Source: a virus
IMG/VR virus record: IMGVR_UViG_3300009703_000040
Span: 1-39,805 of that record
DNA: 39,805 nt
Direction: 5' to 3' (one strand)
Shown here in pieces: positions 20,768 through 35,915 of the stretch; position 1 is the stretch's first letter; each line of letters starts with the position of its first letter. The position numbers were made by a program, and so were the translations under genes. The notes beneath the pieces are model-generated. The model was not told the DNA's origin. It saw nothing but the letters and a program-made list of their open reading frames with translations, and made no database searches.

Positions 20768-21465
20768 TGAAAACTTATAAAGAAGTAAATCCGTATAATG
20801 GCGAAGAGGTGATGGTAGAAACTACAGCGACAATTAGTGGATTTAAAAAAAGTTTTATTAGACCTAATAAACCACCGCTTATAGCTAGTTCACTTATGAA
20901 TCGTGCAAAAGGAATGGGTATCAAACAAGTTAATTTTGAAGATGGAACTATTACATTAAAAGGTAGTAAATCTAAAGTGATGGAAATATTAAAGGATGCA
21001 AAAAAAGAAAAACTAAAAACAGATATGACAGAAGATGCACCGACAAATGCAACTGGTGTTAATGTTGCTGGAACAGGTGATGACTCTTCTGTAGTTGTTG
21101 TAAAAAAGAAAAAAAGAAAACAACCTCTTATAGATGCAAGAACTAAATCATATAGACTTCACAGAGAGAAATTAAAAAAAATGAGAGAAAAAAGAAGCAA
21201 GTTTAGAGAAGAAGTTGTAGAGCAAATGTTTCAAGAAACTGCTCTAGATACTTTACAAAAAATTGTCAGAGATAAACAAGCACAAACTATCAGATTTAAA
21301 GATGGTTCTATGAAAGTTGATATGACTACTGCTAACATTGTTTTAAAAGTTATAGACAAAATTAAAAACCCAGACTTAAAAAAGAAAGTTAAGGACAAAC
21401 TAAAGAGTGGTAAGAAAATTGACTTTCAAGGTGTTTTAAATGTTGCAATGAAAGCTTTAAGATGA
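20767..21465 (+). CDS. Basic coiled-coil protein, possible prohead scaffold
   Basis: A 232-residue protein, strongly basic in the middle (VVVKKKKRKQPLIDARTKSY, then RLHREKLKKMREKRSKFREE) with a following helix and a C-terminal domain made of short alpha/beta elements (IRFKDGSMKVDMTTANIVLK). Translationally coupled to both neighbours. The high charge and location fit a scaffold, prohead core or internal head protein, but nothing identifies it. Confidence 0.6.
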   Translation: MKTYKEVNPYNGEEVMVETTATISGFKKSFIRPNKPPLIASSLMNRAKGMGIKQVNFEDGTITLKGSKSKVMEILKDAKKEKLKTDMTEDAPTNATGVNVAGTGDDSSVVVVKKKKRKQPLIDARTKSYRLHREKLKKMREKRSKFREEVVEQMFQETALDTLQKIVRDKQAQTIRFKDGSMKVDMTTANIVLKVIDKIKNPDLKKKVKDKLKSGKKIDFQGVLNVAMKALR

Positions 21466-21644
21466 TTAGATTATCAATTTTAATTTTACCATTATTTCTT
21501 TTAGGCTGCACAATAACAGAACCTTTAAATAATCCAAAACTTTCCTTTGGTAAAAAATGTAATGATGATGTTTGGAGTTATGTTTGGATTTATAATAAAG
21601 ACAAAGAATTACAAGCAAACGAGAAAGATTGTGAAAAACTTTAA
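21462..21644 (+). CDS. Small lipoprotein
   Basis: A 60-residue protein with a type II signal: basic start, hydrophobic LSILILPLFL and lipobox LLGC at residues 13-16. The short mature part is polar with two further cysteines. It overlaps the upstream gene by four bases. It could serve as an outer-membrane lipoprotein of lysis or superinfection exclusion; it lies 230 bases upstream of the spanin pair but is not itself needed as the o-spanin, since a better candidate overlaps the i-spanin. Confidence 0.65.
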   Translation: MIRLSILILPLFLLGCTITEPLNNPKLSFGKKCNDDVWSYVWIYNKDKELQANEKDCEKL

Positions 21645-21870: not shown

Positions 21871-22257
21871 ATGTTGAAAATTTATATTGGGATTATCGTT
21901 ATTGGATTAGTTAGTGGAGTTGTATATGGTGCCTATGCATACTATTCAAGCACACAAGCAAGAATATCACAACTAACACAAAATAATGCAAAACTAGAAA
22001 CAGCTGTTCAATCGAAAAATGTTGCAATCAAAGAATTAAATAATAACATAGAAAAACAAATAGAGTTAAATAGTGAGTTACAAAATTCTTTATCATCTGC
22101 TACTGAAGATAAAGAAGCATTACAAAACAAATTAAGAAAACATGATTTAACTAATTTGTCTAAAAAGAAACCCGATTCAATAGAGAGAATAATCAATGGT
22201 AAAACACAAGAGATATTGGATAAGTTTATGGAGCTTACTACTAATACTAGTAATTAG
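21871..22257 (+). CDS. Candidate i-spanin (Rz-like)
   Basis: A 128-residue type II membrane protein: one N-terminal span (IYIGIIVIGLVSGVVYGAYA) followed by a long heptad coiled coil (about 30-95) and a conserved-looking tail. This is the architecture of inner-membrane spanins, which join an outer-membrane lipoprotein across the periplasm for the last step of lysis. The next gene, a lipoprotein, starts inside its 3' end in another frame, the classic overlapping spanin arrangement. Confidence 0.72.
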   Translation: MLKIYIGIIVIGLVSGVVYGAYAYYSSTQARISQLTQNNAKLETAVQSKNVAIKELNNNIEKQIELNSELQNSLSSATEDKEALQNKLRKHDLTNLSKKKPDSIERIINGKTQEILDKFMELTTNTSN

Positions 22258-22588
22258 TGGTTGTAGTAGACCTGAAAAAGAGATTGTAACTGTTACAGAG
22301 ATTATCAAACCTACGATTGCAATCGCACCCAAACCTAAAGAATTATCACTTCTTCCATTATATTTTTATGTCATAACAGAAGAAAATTATGATGAATTCA
22401 AATTAAAATTCCTTGACAAAGAATCAGATTTAGTATATTATGCATTATCTGTGCCTGATTACGAGAATCTTGCACTAAATATGGAAGAGATAAAACGATA
22501 TTTAGTACAACAAAAAGAAATTATAGTTTATTATGAGAAGGCAGTAACAGAGGAACCAGAGGAAAAAGAGGAGAATACAGATGAGTGA
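22196..22588 (+). CDS. Candidate o-spanin lipoprotein (Rz1-like)
   Basis: A 130-residue lipoprotein with signal SLWSLLLILVISGC, lipobox ISGC with Cys23. The mature part starts with a Pro-rich stretch (IIKPTIAIAPKPKEL) followed by an alpha/beta region and a very acidic tail. It overlaps the i-spanin candidate by 62 bases out of frame. It is longer than lambda Rz1, so the extra C-terminal domain may have another job. Confidence 0.68.
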   Translation: MVKHKRYWISLWSLLLILVISGCSRPEKEIVTVTEIIKPTIAIAPKPKELSLLPLYFYVITEENYDEFKLKFLDKESDLVYYALSVPDYENLALNMEEIKRYLVQQKEIIVYYEKAVTEEPEEKEENTDE

Positions 22589-23363
22589 TAGTTTTAAAGA
22601 GAGAAAAACAAGAGCTGCTTTGATGGCAAAATGTTCACAACTTGCTTATTTAGAACCAGAAGATGCAGAAAATCATTGGAGTAGTTTAGGATATCCACAG
22701 TCTAAGTTTATTTCTCACGAAGGGGCTCAATGTTATATTGTATGGAATAGTGATGAAACAATTATAGTTTTCAGAGGAACAGAACCTACTCAATGGAGTG
22801 ATGTAAAGGCAGATTTAAATGCGATTCAAAAGAAATCAAATACAAAGGGTGATGTTCACGGAGGATTTAAAGGAGAACTTGATAAGATTTGGCAAAATAT
22901 ATTAATGAGTTTTATGAACAGAGGTGAAAATACTGAAGGTGGATTGTCACAAAATCACAAGTTTTTTATTACAGGTCATTCACTAGGAGCGGCCATGGCA
23001 ACAATAGCTGCAAGTAGATTGTACGAAACATTTAATGTTCAATCTTTATATACTTTTGGTTCACCACGAGTTGGTGATAGAAGTTGGGTAAAGAATTTAG
23101 GTGTGACACACTATCGTTTTCAAAATAACAATGATATTGTATGTACAGTTCCATTTTGGTTTATGGGTTATCGCCATCACGGAAAAAATATCTACATTGG
23201 ATATGATGGAAAGATAAACTTATTAAGTCTTTGGGCTAGATTTTTAGATGGACTAAAAGGTCGTTGGAGAGCTTTGAAAAAGAAAGAAGCATTTGATGGA
23301 ATCTATGATCATGATATTGGTCGTTATCATAAACGGATTGAAAAATGTACTTCTGGCTTATAA
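22581..23363 (+). CDS. Class 3 lipase, alpha/beta hydrolase
   Basis: A 260-residue hydrolase with all class 3 lipase hallmarks: IIVFRGTEPTQWSD (61-74) forming the oxyanion-hole strand, DVHGGF (91-96), the nucleophile elbow TGHSLGAA with Ser134, YTFGSPRVGD (157-166), Asp185 in NNNDIV and His199/His200 in YRHHGKN. No signal peptide is visible, so membrane access would need a holin or release at lysis. It overlaps the o-spanin by eight bases, putting it in the lysis cassette, where it could attack phospholipids to weaken membranes. A virion role in entry is the alternative. Confidence 0.88.
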   Translation: MSDSFKERKTRAALMAKCSQLAYLEPEDAENHWSSLGYPQSKFISHEGAQCYIVWNSDETIIVFRGTEPTQWSDVKADLNAIQKKSNTKGDVHGGFKGELDKIWQNILMSFMNRGENTEGGLSQNHKFFITGHSLGAAMATIAASRLYETFNVQSLYTFGSPRVGDRSWVKNLGVTHYRFQNNNDIVCTVPFWFMGYRHHGKNIYIGYDGKINLLSLWARFLDGLKGRWRALKKKEAFDGIYDHDIGRYHKRIEKCTSGL

Positions 23364-25080: not shown

Positions 25081-25494
25081 TTGGTTTCAGACATTTTCCA
25101 ACAACTAGAAACAGACGTAAAAATCTTGCAAAAAGAAGTGCAAGATATGAAAACTATACACTTACGTTTAGATGCCGCCATAGTAAAGATAAGTGAAGTA
25201 TCTAATTCAATAAATCGTATGTTAGCTGTTCACGAAGAAAAATTATCTCAACAAGAAGAAGCACAAATGAGTATAGGTAGTTTGGTTGAACAAAGACGTA
25301 TAGAATTTAAAAGTGAAATTGTAAATTTACATACAAGAATTTCTGACAATAAACAAGAAGTTATTGATGCAATTAGAAGATTAGAAATTGAAGTCAATGG
25401 CAGAGTTGGTGTATTAGAGAGATGGAGATGGTTAATTATTGGAGGTTCTATAGTTATAGGATTTATTTTACATAAATTTATGATTATTCCTTGA
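25081..25494 (+). CDS. Tail-anchored coiled-coil membrane protein
   Basis: A 137-residue protein starting at TTG 25081 with AAGGCGG about eight bases upstream; the alternative is a later ATG in MKTIHLRL. Most of it is coiled coil (DIFQQLETDVKILQKEVQDM and beyond), and the C-terminus is a membrane anchor (WRWLIIGGSIVIGFILHKFM). Paired with the small membrane protein before it, it may regulate the holin or form part of a lysis or envelope complex. Function unknown. Confidence 0.6.
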   Translation: MVSDIFQQLETDVKILQKEVQDMKTIHLRLDAAIVKISEVSNSINRMLAVHEEKLSQQEEAQMSIGSLVEQRRIEFKSEIVNLHTRISDNKQEVIDAIRRLEIEVNGRVGVLERWRWLIIGGSIVIGFILHKFMIIP

Positions 25495-31718: not shown

Positions 31719-32321
31719 ATGAATTATAACTTTTATTCAAAAATTTTAATAATATCTGCACACCCTGATGATTTAGAAATTTCTTGTGCTGGAACTGTGA
31801 AAAAGTTTATAAAGGCGGGTACAGTTGTTGATAATTTAATTATGATTCCAAACGTACCACATCTTAAATATCTAGACTCAAGTGCATTTGGATTAGGTTT
31901 TAATTATATTGTATTTGATAACGATATAGATAGACCCAATATTGTGGATAACAAATTAATTCAAGAAGTAGAAGAAAAATATAGTCTATTTGGTTATGAT
32001 TTAATTATATCACATTGGAAAGAAGATTGGCATCAAGACCACAGAATGTGTTATCATTTGACAAATAGTTTAAGAAGAAAACAACCAATAGACGTTTGGT
32101 ATATGGATGCATTTCCTTACAATCAAAAGTATAATCAATTCAGAAACAATGTTTTTGTTGGCATTGATAATGAAATAGAAGATAAAATAAAAGCAGTAAA
32201 AGAATATAAAAATTTGTCTGAAGATACAATTGATTCTATAATTAAATACAATAGATATCGTGGTGATTTTATAAATTGCGATTTTGCAGAAACTTTCATG
32301 GTAGACACTATTGTCATTTAA
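31719..32321 (+). CDS. PIG-L family (LmbE-like) deacetylase
   Basis: A 200-residue zinc-dependent deacetylase. The signature AHPDDLE (14-20) supplies His15 and Asp18 for zinc with Asp17 as base, and DWHQDHRM gives His105 and His108. The family removes acetyl from N-acetylglucosamine conjugates. Following a glycosyltransferase and an oxygenase, it probably deacetylates a transferred amino sugar, exposing a free amine. It ends the early block; the gap after it holds promoter-like sequence. Confidence 0.88.
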   Translation: MNYNFYSKILIISAHPDDLEISCAGTVKKFIKAGTVVDNLIMIPNVPHLKYLDSSAFGLGFNYIVFDNDIDRPNIVDNKLIQEVEEKYSLFGYDLIISHWKEDWHQDHRMCYHLTNSLRRKQPIDVWYMDAFPYNQKYNQFRNNVFVGIDNEIEDKIKAVKEYKNLSEDTIDSIIKYNRYRGDFINCDFAETFMVDTIVI

Positions 32322-32381
32322 TTGACATTTTGACTTGTCAAAAAATATGTAAACAAACCCCCATTTTCACATCTAGATTTT

Positions 32382-32389
32382 TCTAAATA
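32382..32389 (+). promoter_or_regulatory. Possible late promoter
   Basis: TCTAAATA matches TATAAATA at seven of eight positions and lies 28 bases before the ATG at 32418, in a 96-base gap that separates the early block from the secreted-protein cassette. A TTGACA at 32323-32328 in the same gap has no good -10. Confidence 0.42.
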
Positions 32390-32417
32390 ATAATGAACTT
32401 CTATTAAGGAAATCTAA

Positions 32418-32981
32418 ATGAAATACACAATATTTGCTATAATATTTTTTTTAGCAATGACAGCACTTTATGCTTTTGGGGCAGATACTAATACTGTATC
32501 ATCAACAGTTGTTACAAATAATACGCCACCTACAGCCTCTGCACCTTCAGTTGTCATTAATAATAGTGATGTGTGTAAACAAGCAATGTCAGGTGCTGTG
32601 CAAACGTCAGTTTTTGGTGTTGCATCTGGTATAACAGTAACAGATGAGAATTGCGAAAGAATTAAACTTTCACGCTCACTCTATGGAATGGGAATGAAAG
32701 TTGCAGCTGTATCTGCATTATGTCAAGATGTTAGAGTTTTTGATGCAATGTGGATGGCTGGAACACCTTGTCCATATTATGGTGCTATCGGAGATGATGC
32801 AAGAGAATCTTGGAAAGAAAATACTAAAGATATACCTGAAGGTAGTTTAATTTTACCAAAAATATTAAAAGAACAAAGAGAAGAAGAATTATTACAAGAA
32901 GAAATAAACGATTTAGAAAATACAAATAAGACGGACAAAAAGGTCTTTTCCATAGGTAAAGATGGAAAAGTTAGTCAATAG
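32418..32981 (+). CDS. Secreted conserved marine-phage protein, unknown
   Basis: A 187-residue protein with a clear Sec signal peptide (YTIFAIIFFLAMTALYAFGA). The mature core, VFGVASGITVTDENCERIKL to CPYYGAIGDD, has four conserved-looking cysteines, suitable for periplasmic disulfides. A charged helical tail follows. I recognise the core as common in marine T4-like phages, always of unknown function. It heads a group of four exported or membrane proteins, overlapping the next by 20 bases. Confidence 0.7.
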   Translation: MKYTIFAIIFFLAMTALYAFGADTNTVSSTVVTNNTPPTASAPSVVINNSDVCKQAMSGAVQTSVFGVASGITVTDENCERIKLSRSLYGMGMKVAAVSALCQDVRVFDAMWMAGTPCPYYGAIGDDARESWKENTKDIPEGSLILPKILKEQREEELLQEEINDLENTNKTDKKVFSIGKDGKVSQ

Positions 32982-34653
32982 ATGGTTACAGATGTTCTTA
33001 TTATCTATTGTATCGCTCTCATTGTTTTTTTGGTCGTCTACTTCATTTGCAAATGACTCTTGCCCAACATTAACCATAGGATTATGCACACCTGGTGTTA
33101 CCATAGAAACTGTAGAAACAATAGATGAATCTACAGAACTTGGTGGTGATGGTATAACAACTACAATCACAACTACAACAGACATAACGACTACAACAAT
33201 TACAAATGAAGATTCCAATAACATATTAGATGGAAGTCAAGGATATGTTTCATCTAGTAAAGAGGGAGATATGGATTCAGATTGGGGTGGACAAGGTTCT
33301 GCATCAATGCCAAGTGGTGCAACTTGTGGAGATTTAGGAACAGATAGATGTGCAATGATTACTGGTAGTGGGAGTAGCACAAGTGCATATGGTGTTAGTG
33401 GTATGGGAACAACTTTTATTAATACAGTTAACATATCAGATTTACGATCAAGTATGGGAAGAGGCGGTAGAACAACATATAGAATTAGTGTAGATAAACA
33501 AGATTCTCAAGATAGAATTTATTTACATTTGAGAGGTAAAGATGGAAATACAACAGTATTTTCTGGTACTGATATTCTATCTGAAACTGGTGTAAATAGT
33601 CAGTATCAAACTTATGAAGGTGGCTGGGATTTTAGTGGTCAACTTTCAACTGTGATTGTAGAGGTAGGTGGAAGAGATATTAATCTTGCAGTAGGACCAA
33701 TGTTTGATGATGTAGAGATAAATATATTATATAATGTTGTAAATACAATTGTCACACAACAAATCACAACTGTAGAAGAATTTATTGCATTAAATGGATA
33801 TGATACAGAAACAATTGAAATTGTTGAAGATATATTTGAAACTAATGATGTTATCGTAGACGATTTTGGTGACATAGAAATTGTGCCAGATATTGAGATG
33901 GACACAGAAGTTACCTATGAAACTGTTGAATTAGAATTAGAAATAGAAATACCTGACATTGAAATAGAAATGCCAGAAATAGAATTATCATTTGATAATG
34001 CTATGATGGATGATCTACCTGAAGTTAATGTAGAAATAGAGGTAGAGATGGAAATGGAAATTGTGGAGGTTAGTGTTGAGGTAGAAACGGAGAGTGTAAA
34101 TGAAGTCACAACGGAGCCGCAGGGGTCGAGTTCAGAGAATACGGAAGATACGTCAGAAGATGTACAAGAGCCCAGTAGTGATGTGGAAAAGCCAGTGGGA
34201 GGAAATAATGATGACGAATCTGATGAGGGAGAGGGTGAAACAGAAAGTTCTAAAGAAGATACAGTAGAAGAATCTAAATCAGAACCTGAACCAGAGGAAA
34301 AGTCTGAACCAGAACCTAAAACTGAAAAAACGGAACAAAAAGAAACTGAGGAAAAAGAACAGAAACAAGAGCAGAAACAAAAAGCTGCAACTAAAATAGT
34401 TAAGAAGATGGGTGATAAAGGAAGATATGATTCAGAGAATCAAATTAAAACTTTAATTGTTATGCAAGTGTTGGGAAATACAAAAGATTTTTTTGACACT
34501 AAAAAAATAATACCAGATGTTGAGGGATTTTTTACAGATGCAACAATACCTGGTGGAGAATATAAAGAAGATAATTATTTACAATATTTTTTATTCGGTG
34601 GTAGTGATATTAAACATAAAGAACTAATAGAATCGCAATATAGGAGAAACTAA
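32962..34653 (+). CDS. Secreted acidic low-complexity protein
   Basis: A 563-residue exported protein with signal peptide (MFLLSIVSLSLFFWSSTSFA, 11-30). It has a Thr-rich patch (TTTITTTTDITTTTITN, 66-82), a beta-rich domain (about 130-245) reading like a lectin or jellyroll fold, a long Glu/Ile/Val strand-like stretch (330-385), and a Glu/Pro/Lys/Ser linker (390-480) before a compact C-terminal domain. It resembles a surface or periplasmic spacer protein with an adhesive head. Bases about 34100-34200 use GC-richer codons (ACG, CCG, GGG, TCG) than the surroundings. Function unknown. Confidence 0.65.
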   Translation: MEKLVNRWLQMFLLSIVSLSLFFWSSTSFANDSCPTLTIGLCTPGVTIETVETIDESTELGGDGITTTITTTTDITTTTITNEDSNNILDGSQGYVSSSKEGDMDSDWGGQGSASMPSGATCGDLGTDRCAMITGSGSSTSAYGVSGMGTTFINTVNISDLRSSMGRGGRTTYRISVDKQDSQDRIYLHLRGKDGNTTVFSGTDILSETGVNSQYQTYEGGWDFSGQLSTVIVEVGGRDINLAVGPMFDDVEINILYNVVNTIVTQQITTVEEFIALNGYDTETIEIVEDIFETNDVIVDDFGDIEIVPDIEMDTEVTYETVELELEIEIPDIEIEMPEIELSFDNAMMDDLPEVNVEIEVEMEMEIVEVSVEVETESVNEVTTEPQGSSSENTEDTSEDVQEPSSDVEKPVGGNNDDESDEGEGETESSKEDTVEESKSEPEPEEKSEPEPKTEKTEQKETEEKEQKQEQKQKAATKIVKKMGDKGRYDSENQIKTLIVMQVLGNTKDFFDTKKIIPDVEGFFTDATIPGGEYKEDNYLQYFLFGGSDIKHKELIESQYRRN

Positions 34654-35351
34654 TGGCTGAAGTAGAATACGGCGGTATAAAAATTGGTGGAAGTAAATTA
34701 TTGCTCATTCTGCCACTAATAGGAACACTTGGTGGAGGATTATGGGCTGGATTTGAATTTTATAAAGATTACATGGACATGAAAGAGCAAATAGAAGAAT
34801 ACGTTGCACCAGATATGTCTGGGCTAGAAGAAGAGATGGCAGTTTTAAAAGAAACTATAGAAAGTTCAGAAGCACAACTTCAAAGTTTTATAGATATAAT
34901 AGAGGAGAAAACTACCTCTTCAGAAGAAAAAGTTGATTTGTTACAAAATGAATTACAAGCTAGAATAGAAGGTTTTGAAAAAGAGATTGAGATTGTCATA
35001 AAGTTTGAAGAGAACTTGGCAGACCAAGCTGAAGATGCAAGAACTTATACAAAATCTACTGCTCGTGAAATAAAAGATGAAATGCATATTATGGATGTGA
35101 AAATGAATAAAATGGAAAAACTTGCCAGAGAAGCATTTGCAAGTGTCAGATTAAGTATTGAAACTAATGATACAAAAGTACGAGATATGATAACTGTAAA
35201 CTCTGATAGGTTTGATAAACGTAGGGAACAATTAAGAAATGATATGGATTCTTTAGAAGCGAGATTAATGAAGAGTATGGAAACAATACAAAAAGAAATT
35301 GATGATAAAATACAGAAAGCACTAGAAAATCCATTATCGGGCATGAATTAG
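34653..35351 (+). CDS. Membrane-anchored coiled-coil protein
   Basis: A 232-residue protein with an N-terminal membrane span (LLLILPLIGTLGGGLWAGFE) and a continuous coiled coil from about residue 50 to the end. It is coupled to the upstream gene by a shared A of the stop and start. The architecture is that of a bitopic protein reaching across the periplasm; with the secreted proteins upstream it may form an envelope-spanning complex. No family name. Confidence 0.65.
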   Translation: MAEVEYGGIKIGGSKLLLILPLIGTLGGGLWAGFEFYKDYMDMKEQIEEYVAPDMSGLEEEMAVLKETIESSEAQLQSFIDIIEEKTTSSEEKVDLLQNELQARIEGFEKEIEIVIKFEENLADQAEDARTYTKSTAREIKDEMHIMDVKMNKMEKLAREAFASVRLSIETNDTKVRDMITVNSDRFDKRREQLRNDMDSLEARLMKSMETIQKEIDDKIQKALENPLSGMN

Positions 35352-35438
35352 AGAAAAAACGGACCGCTCAGCAGGTCGCTAGGTGGGTGGAAAGAACCTC
35401 TCGTGTATGATTGTACCCCTTAAAAAACGGAGATTTTT
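35352..35438 (+). other. GC-rich intergenic region, possible structured leader RNA
   Basis: This 87-base gap is noticeably richer in G and C than its surroundings. It can fold GACC (35362-35365) with GGTC and AGGT with ACCT, and the decamer AAAAAACGGA occurs at both ends (35354-35363 and 35422-35431), the second forming part of the next gene's ribosome binding site. It resembles a structured 5' leader, but I could not match a known riboswitch. Confidence 0.35.
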
Positions 35439-35915
35439 ATGATAGACCCGATTACGGCGATTGCAACTGCAACAGCTGCTTTTAACGTCATAAAGCAAGG
35501 AATTAGTGCTGGCAAAGACATGGAAGATATGTATGGCACCATGGGTAAATGGATGGGTGCAATATCTGATGTCCGTCAAGCAGATAAGATGGCGAAAAAT
35601 CCACCTGCATTTAAAAAAATATTCTTTGGTTCATCAATTGAAGAGGAGGCAATGGATGCTTTTGCAGCTTCAAAAAAAGCAGAGGCAATGGAAGATGAAT
35701 TAAGAACATTTGTCAACTTAACTTATGGGCCTAATAGCTGGAATGAGATTTTGAAACTACAAGCCAAAATTCGTAAGGATAGACAAGACCAAATTTATGC
35801 TCAACAAGAGCAAATGAATCAAATTTGGAATTGGATAATGATAGCTATTGGTGTCATTGCAGGTATTGGAGTTTTTGCTCTTTTACTTTATGTTGTCGTG
35901 GCTGCATTAAAATAA
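35439..35915 (+). CDS. Conserved marine-phage membrane protein
   Basis: A 158-residue protein beginning MIDPITAIATATAAFNVIKQ, with a Gly/Ala-rich first helix, a soluble helical middle (about 40-125), and a C-terminal membrane span (IMIAIGVIAGIGVFALLLYV). Ribosome binding site is CGGAG. It is the last of four exported or membrane genes. I have seen this type in many marine myoviruses without a function; virion or envelope roles are both possible. Confidence 0.65.
   Translation: MIDPITAIATATAAFNVIKQGISAGKDMEDMYGTMGKWMGAISDVRQADKMAKNPPAFKKIFFGSSIEEEAMDAFAASKKAEAMEDELRTFVNLTYGPNSWNEILKLQAKIRKDRQDQIYAQQEQMNQIWNWIMIAIGVIAGIGVFALLLYVVVAALK

Follow-up and report, generated by a model that had tools for sequence, protein, structure and literature searches.

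Among described phage systems, the Rz/Rz1 spanins come close in plan to the locus analyzed here: an inner-membrane protein with an N-terminal helix and a periplasmic coiled coil is paired with an exported partner, and the genes overlap. The same features recur in a trio of genes, g1, g2, and g3, in virus record IMGVR_UViG_3300009703_000040, whose whole 39.8-kb stretch is referred to below as the window. Unlike Rz/Rz1, the trio comprises three genes, has no lipobox-bearing partner, and encodes a predicted jelly-roll head, an acidic tether, and a C-terminal Asn-Pro-Leu (NPL) motif. The superinfection-exclusion proteins Imm and Sp of T4 and Llp of T5, like the trio, are encoded by the phage and belong to the infected cell's envelope, but they are mostly single small proteins, and we know of no superinfection-exclusion protein with an anchor, a tether, and a swappable head. 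The fold predicted for the g2 head is shared with carbohydrate-binding modules (CBMs; CBM16, CBM4, and CBM61) and with the C-terminal domains of tailspikes, from which it differs in being ~7–15% identical in the matches listed and in having neither an attached enzyme nor a virion fiber. Pelagiphages are described, in the available portions of PMC9599517 and PMC7029224, as carrying CsgG/CsgF clusters; this curli (type VIII secretion) system, like the trio, consists of exported phage genes common to unrelated pelagiphages (PMC9599517, same portion), whereas the trio gave no CsgG, CsgF, or curlin match in the few records and proteins searched. No description of the trio itself was found in the portions of the literature available to us. 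Here we report that g1–g3 form a genuine three-gene unit that is portable, shows a clear envelope topology, and carries a swappable head of sugar-binding type, and we weigh what such a unit may do in the infected cell.

Conservation of g1, g2, and g3 as a unit

A search of viral contigs with g1 returned at least 598 confirmed relatives, 80 of which were examined as loci, and a search with g3 gave 80 loci, 79 of them new, with some contigs present in both recruited sets (e.g., L024/L120, L025/L122, and L071/L144). Using profiles for g1, g2, and g3 and excluding loci with too little flanking sequence, we found g3 downstream of g1 in 56/56 g1-recruited loci whose downstream flank exceeds 2.5 kb, and g1 upstream of g3 in 34/34 g3-recruited loci whose upstream flank exceeds 2.5 kb (37/39 for flanks exceeding 2 kb). 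Where the g2 profile failed in loci holding more than 3 kb upstream, an export-type open reading frame (ORF), mostly with a long acidic stretch, stands between g1 and g3; in L096 and L097, g1 and g3 are present with no middle ORF of 200 aa. Each of the 11 named phage records that contain g1 shows the layout of g1, a middle ORF, and an ORF with a transmembrane helix and NPL; these are HTVC115P, HTVC023P, Mosig, CRP-207, ctXG6705, MedDCM-S28-C10, CRP-810, HTVC033P, HTVC202P, Baldr, and ct7L0027. Contigs of bacterial genomes, largely metagenome-assembled, yielded 15 loci; the g3 profile matched in 7 of the 11 with room for it, and the other 4 show the same three-ORF layout. The grouping of g1–g3 is far beyond chance, and the cassette is carried by unrelated phage genomes of clearly different types.

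A sequence-only reading of the window had described four ORFs, g1 to g4, as one operon of secreted and membrane proteins, and had named co-conservation across marine phages as a check. All four ORFs are present on the plus strand at the coordinates given there, and co-conservation holds for g1–g3. The same three genes retain the character of a single operon: g1 shares 20 nt with g2, g2 shares 1 nt with g3, and a 96-nt intergenic leader (32322-32417) precedes g1, with a CTAAATA box, a putative promoter element, starting 35 nt 5' of the g1 start codon. An 87-nt gap, with no Rfam match and folding no better than that of shuffled sequences (z 0.47), separates g3 from g4 (35439-35915; 158 aa). As had been read from the translation, g4 has a C-terminal hydrophobic helix and may be tail-anchored. 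It is nevertheless not part of the conserved unit: in a survey of g4 viral loci, 22/23 had no g1–g3 match, the exception being the twin contig of the window, and the proposed four-gene unit was rejected. Roseobacter phages account for 10 of the 13 g4-bearing phage records, and in one of this kind, CRP-603, the g4 relative adjoins the small terminase gene. The idea of an envelope-associated multi-protein unit thus has good support for g1–g3, from their export signals, topology, and co-conservation, and falls for g4.

Predicted topology of g1 and g3

Export, membrane-helix, and lipobox assignments throughout come from our own hydropathy rules, not from SignalP or TMHMM. By alignment and structure prediction, g1 (32418-32981; 187 aa) is probably exported, with a hydrophobic N-terminus and four cysteines among 165 mature residues. 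These cysteines (C53, C79, C102, and C118) are invariant in alignments of 18 and 47 sequences, and the four-cysteine pattern was unmatched in 8/129 g1 proteins, some of which are cut at a contig end. The N-terminal region is hydrophobic in 120/121 g1 proteins. The "secreted cysteine-rich" description of g1 is therefore kept as to export, from its hydrophobic N-terminus, and better put as "four conserved cysteines" as to composition. The core is predicted to be helical and the tail is hydrophilic in the window version, while 47/121 relatives have a hydrophobic C-terminal segment. The protein belongs to PHROG family phrog_20531 (E 3.2e-11), listed there as of unknown function; its predicted fold gave weak helical matches only (best Z 3.1 over 43 residues), and a sequence search of solved structures with g1 and g2 gave no matches. 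The gene annotated "OmpA family protein" in CRP-810 is a g1, and its product has no Pfam match.

The divergent g1 proteins L004, L090, and L091 carry an additional N-terminal stretch resembling NTSGSNT-x-I-x-GGY. Together with the CsgG/CsgF clusters of pelagiphages, this stretch is what speaks for a curli-like secretion system that would coat or clump infected cells. CsgF was absent in 6/6 cassette records searched, the window has no CsgG, and curlin went unmatched in three divergent g1 proteins scanned, including by Pfam in two with the NTSGSNT-like stretch. With no CsgG, CsgF, or curlin match where searched, the curli link found no support, and we give it almost no credence.

The third gene, g3 (34653-35351; 232 aa), encodes a membrane protein whose alignments and topology rule indicate a probable N-in/C-out orientation with a long periplasmic coiled coil, in keeping with the "bitopic coiled coil" of the sequence-only reading. 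Its single N-terminal transmembrane helix was placed by hydropathy at residues 16-34 (34698-34754); a helix was found in 139/140 g3 proteins, with the N-terminal side the more positive in 124/140, and a median of 146 residues follows the helix among relatives. In the most divergent g3 alignment, invariance is limited to a single glycine and the NPL at the C-terminus, which in the window occupies residues 226-228 (35328-35336). Of 140 distinct g3 proteins, 138 have NP[LM] among their final 11 residues, and the two without it, L017 and L084, look truncated near locus ends. The motif occurs in 64 of 1383 called ORFs, 60 of which are g3 and 2 divergent g3. When both strands of seven phage genomes were considered, ORFs combining a transmembrane helix with NPL numbered 6 of 711, one for each of six cassettes; there was none in the cassette-less HTVC027P and none in 1803 random windows outside cassettes. 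The "lysozyme" genes of the Roseobacter phages CRP-207 (L006:3292-3873) and CRP-810 (L089:8204-8626) encode NPL-ending g3 proteins. In ctXG6705, g3 is an unannotated ORF (L007:9224-9631) and the middle protein is annotated "transport protein tonB".

Organization of g2 and apparent replacement of its head

The middle gene, g2 (32962-34653; 563 aa), probably encodes an exported protein of three parts, as judged from its model and from comparison with other middle proteins. The model has a well-predicted β domain, then ~200 low-confidence residues, then helices. The head (residues 83-262; 33208-33747) is predicted to be a jelly-roll of CBM type, with its best fold match to VIA (Z 13.5, root-mean-square deviation 2.8 Å over 157 aligned residues) and with matches to sugar-binding Fbs proteins (Z 13.5), the phage K2-2 tailspike (TSP; 12.8), CBM16 (12.6), and CBM61 (11.1). 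Pfam returned no match for the window g2 at E up to 0.1, and ten other middle proteins had none over the cut-off. The tether (residues 278-470; 33793-34371) is probably disordered, judging by the low-confidence model and its composition: 38% Asp/Glu in 193 residues, an isoelectric point of 4.1, a charge of about -64, and no cysteine. This tether and the predicted CBM-like head bear out the "long acidic spacer" with an "adhesive-looking domain" that had been read from the translation. The foot (residues 471-563; 34372-34650), a conserved, weakly basic, helical domain that ends in Q-[YW] by alignment, had not been set apart in that reading.

Removal of identical sequences reduced 115 middle proteins to 108, of which 107 have a hydrophobic N-terminus, 99 an acidic 40-residue stretch, and 102 a C-terminal Q/N-[YW]. 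Pairs that combine a foot identity of 60% or more with a head identity below 30% number 33 among these 108, and the reverse pattern occurs in 0 pairs. For example, L139 and L153 are 89% identical in g1, 85% in the foot, and 89% in g3 but 29% in the head, and L134 and L139 are 79%, 78%, and 92% identical, respectively, but again 29% in the head. By these identities, the base is retained and the head is exchanged or is diverging much faster. Some middle proteins (L139:3023-4987, L123, L125, L134, and L153) carry between head and tether a tandem cysteine repeat of approximately C-x-x-x-PLYDPxCxGYxxAY.

A conserved base with a swappable head of carbohydrate-binding type points to binding of the head to a host envelope target that varies between strains. 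Two other accounts of the same anatomy bear on this. The complex could reinforce the envelope by tying the inner membrane to the wall or outer membrane, keeping the infected cell intact until release; the anchor-tether-head arrangement would suit such a role, but peptidoglycan or lipid A, both conserved, would then be the target, leaving head replacement unexplained, and we consider this account improbable. Alternatively, g2 may be a host-recognition protein of the virion. Its close head matches include phage tailspike domains, and the available portion of PMC3909814 gives "putative carbohydrate binding domain containing protein" as the commonest named gene (14/390) in under-recruiting, hypervariable "metaviromic islands" of MedDCM phages and interprets this gene class as host recognition or receptor-binding. 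The MedDCM g2 carries that very product name and may be among the 14. Our own comparison speaks against a virion role on two counts. Tailed phages assemble in the cytoplasm, contrary to the export-type N-terminus of 107/108 distinct middle proteins by the hydropathy rule, where a receptor-binding virion protein would be expected to have no export signal; and g2 is in fixed linkage with a membrane protein. No virion proteome of a cassette phage was found in the literature searched. We regard the virion account as decidedly improbable.

Relation of the trio to lysis genes and spanins

The main rival to an interaction with a variable host target is that the trio is a lysis accessory, in which the inner-membrane coiled coil and tether help disrupt the outer membrane after endolysin action, in the manner of spanins but built differently. 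Like an i-spanin, g3 has an N-terminal membrane helix followed by a predicted periplasmic coiled coil, and it gave a weak PHROG spanin match (E 0.012). Gene order also seemed persuasive: in some lineages a Phage_lysozyme protein and a PHROG holin are encoded a few genes downstream of the trio, an M15 peptidase gene follows g3 in HTVC023P, and the cassette lies near an amidase gene in HTVC033P and beside o-spanin and lysozyme genes in the record G031. When we tested placement using the lysozyme, holin, o-spanin, M15, and amidase families, with records lacking any match excluded, the nearest lysis gene was no nearer than expected of random placement (19/40 records had one within 3 kb, Fisher p 0.27; with one value per group for 24 groups, p 0.39), nor was there excess proximity for lysozyme alone (25 records, p 0.19). 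The linkage of the trio to lysis genes was accordingly rejected.

In a canonical pair the o-spanin partner is a lipoprotein of the outer membrane that bears a lipobox, and we found no sense-strand lipobox at g1–g3 in the window with a scan that detected the window's true o-spanin. The latter belongs to an overlapping Rz/Rz1-type pair at 21871-22588 (phrog_739, E 1.4e-12; phrog_812, E 8e-16). A class 3 lipase gene (22581-23363; Lipase_3, E 1.4e-21) follows this pair, and just upstream of the pair lies a short ORF (21462-21644) that resembles a second lipoprotein and has an evident lipobox. Matches to the canonical o-spanin family phrog_812 occur in 11/49 cassette records, the window included; there were 0 o-spanin matches in a set of 12 phage records to which the window did not belong. 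The i-spanin family phrog_739 was set aside, with one weak match in the same 12 records and matches in 9/14 control genomes. Because 11/49 records keep a canonical o-spanin, the trio cannot be explained as merely a variant spanin, and its role as a general spanin replacement was rejected.

On the side of a lysis function, the lipobox scan gave no match in annotated genes of five cassette genomes (HTVC202P, HTVC033P, HTVC023P, HTVC115P, and MedDCM; first 50 kb only in three), and 13% of the phages surveyed have no recognizable spanins according to the available portion of PMC6139136. Against it, the cassette-less HTVC027P likewise gave no o-spanin candidate in the scan, and head swapping would not be expected of a lysis part. 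On balance, we think a lysis accessory rather unlikely.

HTVC027P is assigned to the HTVC023P group (PMC12753301, in the portion available) and lacks the cassette. Between its PurM and M15 peptidase genes (L212:8980-9833) it encodes a protein with a transmembrane helix and a coil, together with an exported cysteine protein that recurs in nine Skadi phages as "micro-tubular organizer" and in one further record; none of these 11 records, HTVC027P included, is among the g1 records. The presence of alternative proteins in the cassette slot suggests that this slot holds exported envelope proteins in general.

Genomic context of the trio in the window

Immediately upstream, a protein resembling PIG-L type de-N-acetylases (31719-32321; PF02585, E 1.6e-9) adjoins the cassette leader. 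Elsewhere in the window, translations resemble what we take to be a recombinase, a helicase, a primase, and a ribonucleotide reductase, and the primase-reductase neighborhood is similar to that of Pelagibacter phage Mosig. Just upstream of the putative primase, 25081-25494 encodes a DUF7201 coiled-coil protein that has a membrane helix at its C-terminus; in Mosig, a protein similar in look to it stands between g3 and the primase.

Proposed function

That g1–g3 have the envelope anatomy described above seems to us very probable. In the model we propose, g1, g2, and g3 would be exported and assemble into one complex in the infected cell's envelope. The N-terminal helix of g3 would anchor this protein in the inner membrane, with its coiled coil reaching into the periplasm, where g1 would be a small, four-cysteine helical protein that in some relatives has a C-terminal hydrophobic membrane anchor. 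The g2 foot would dock onto g1 and g3, and the acidic, disordered tether would span the periplasm and hold the jelly-roll head at its far end. During infection, the head would occupy a strain-variable envelope target, resulting in receptor occlusion or superinfection exclusion. Formation of the complex, the ligand of the head, the timing, and the purpose are steps that we infer. Among the purposes that the sequence-only reading had raised, host-surface alteration or superinfection exclusion would fit the swapped heads; release gained no backing from gene linkage. We tentatively favor, as possible, the reading that an inner-membrane-anchored, periplasm-crossing tether occupies a variable target in the host envelope and so hinders competing phages. 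A bolder version, which we hold to be somewhat doubtful, is an undescribed, inner-membrane-anchored "fishing line" that many ocean phages infecting SAR11 and relatives would build in infected cells, with a conserved base (g1, g3 with its NPL end, and the g2 foot), a long acidic line, and an interchangeable glycan-binding head, the heads being traded among unrelated phages in the way of receptor-binding domains and controlling who else infects or binds the cell.

Several observations weigh against occupation of a variable host target. No outer-membrane anchor or surface export route was found for the trio, so a head in the periplasm might not come into contact with any surface glycan. Many exclusion factors are encoded by single early genes; in HTVC202P and Baldr, the large terminase gene follows the cassette immediately and in the same direction. 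The middle proteins of CRP-207, CRP-810, and ct7L0027 are short and have no acidic tether, and that of CRP-810 has no clear export signal. Low head identity in some pairs could reflect fast divergence, not replacement. Jelly-roll folds are common, hence the predicted fold is no proof of sugar binding by the g2 head.

With at least 598 g1 relatives and 11 named phages, the trio is a common unexplained component of marine phage genomes. A membrane helix and a C-terminal NPL beside a four-cysteine protein offer an easy signature for recognizing its members among genes currently annotated as hypothetical, lysozyme, OmpA, or TonB. Being portable, made of three genes, and fitted with a swappable head, such an envelope unit would offer a concrete, testable handle on how abundant ocean phages compete within the same cell or at its surface.

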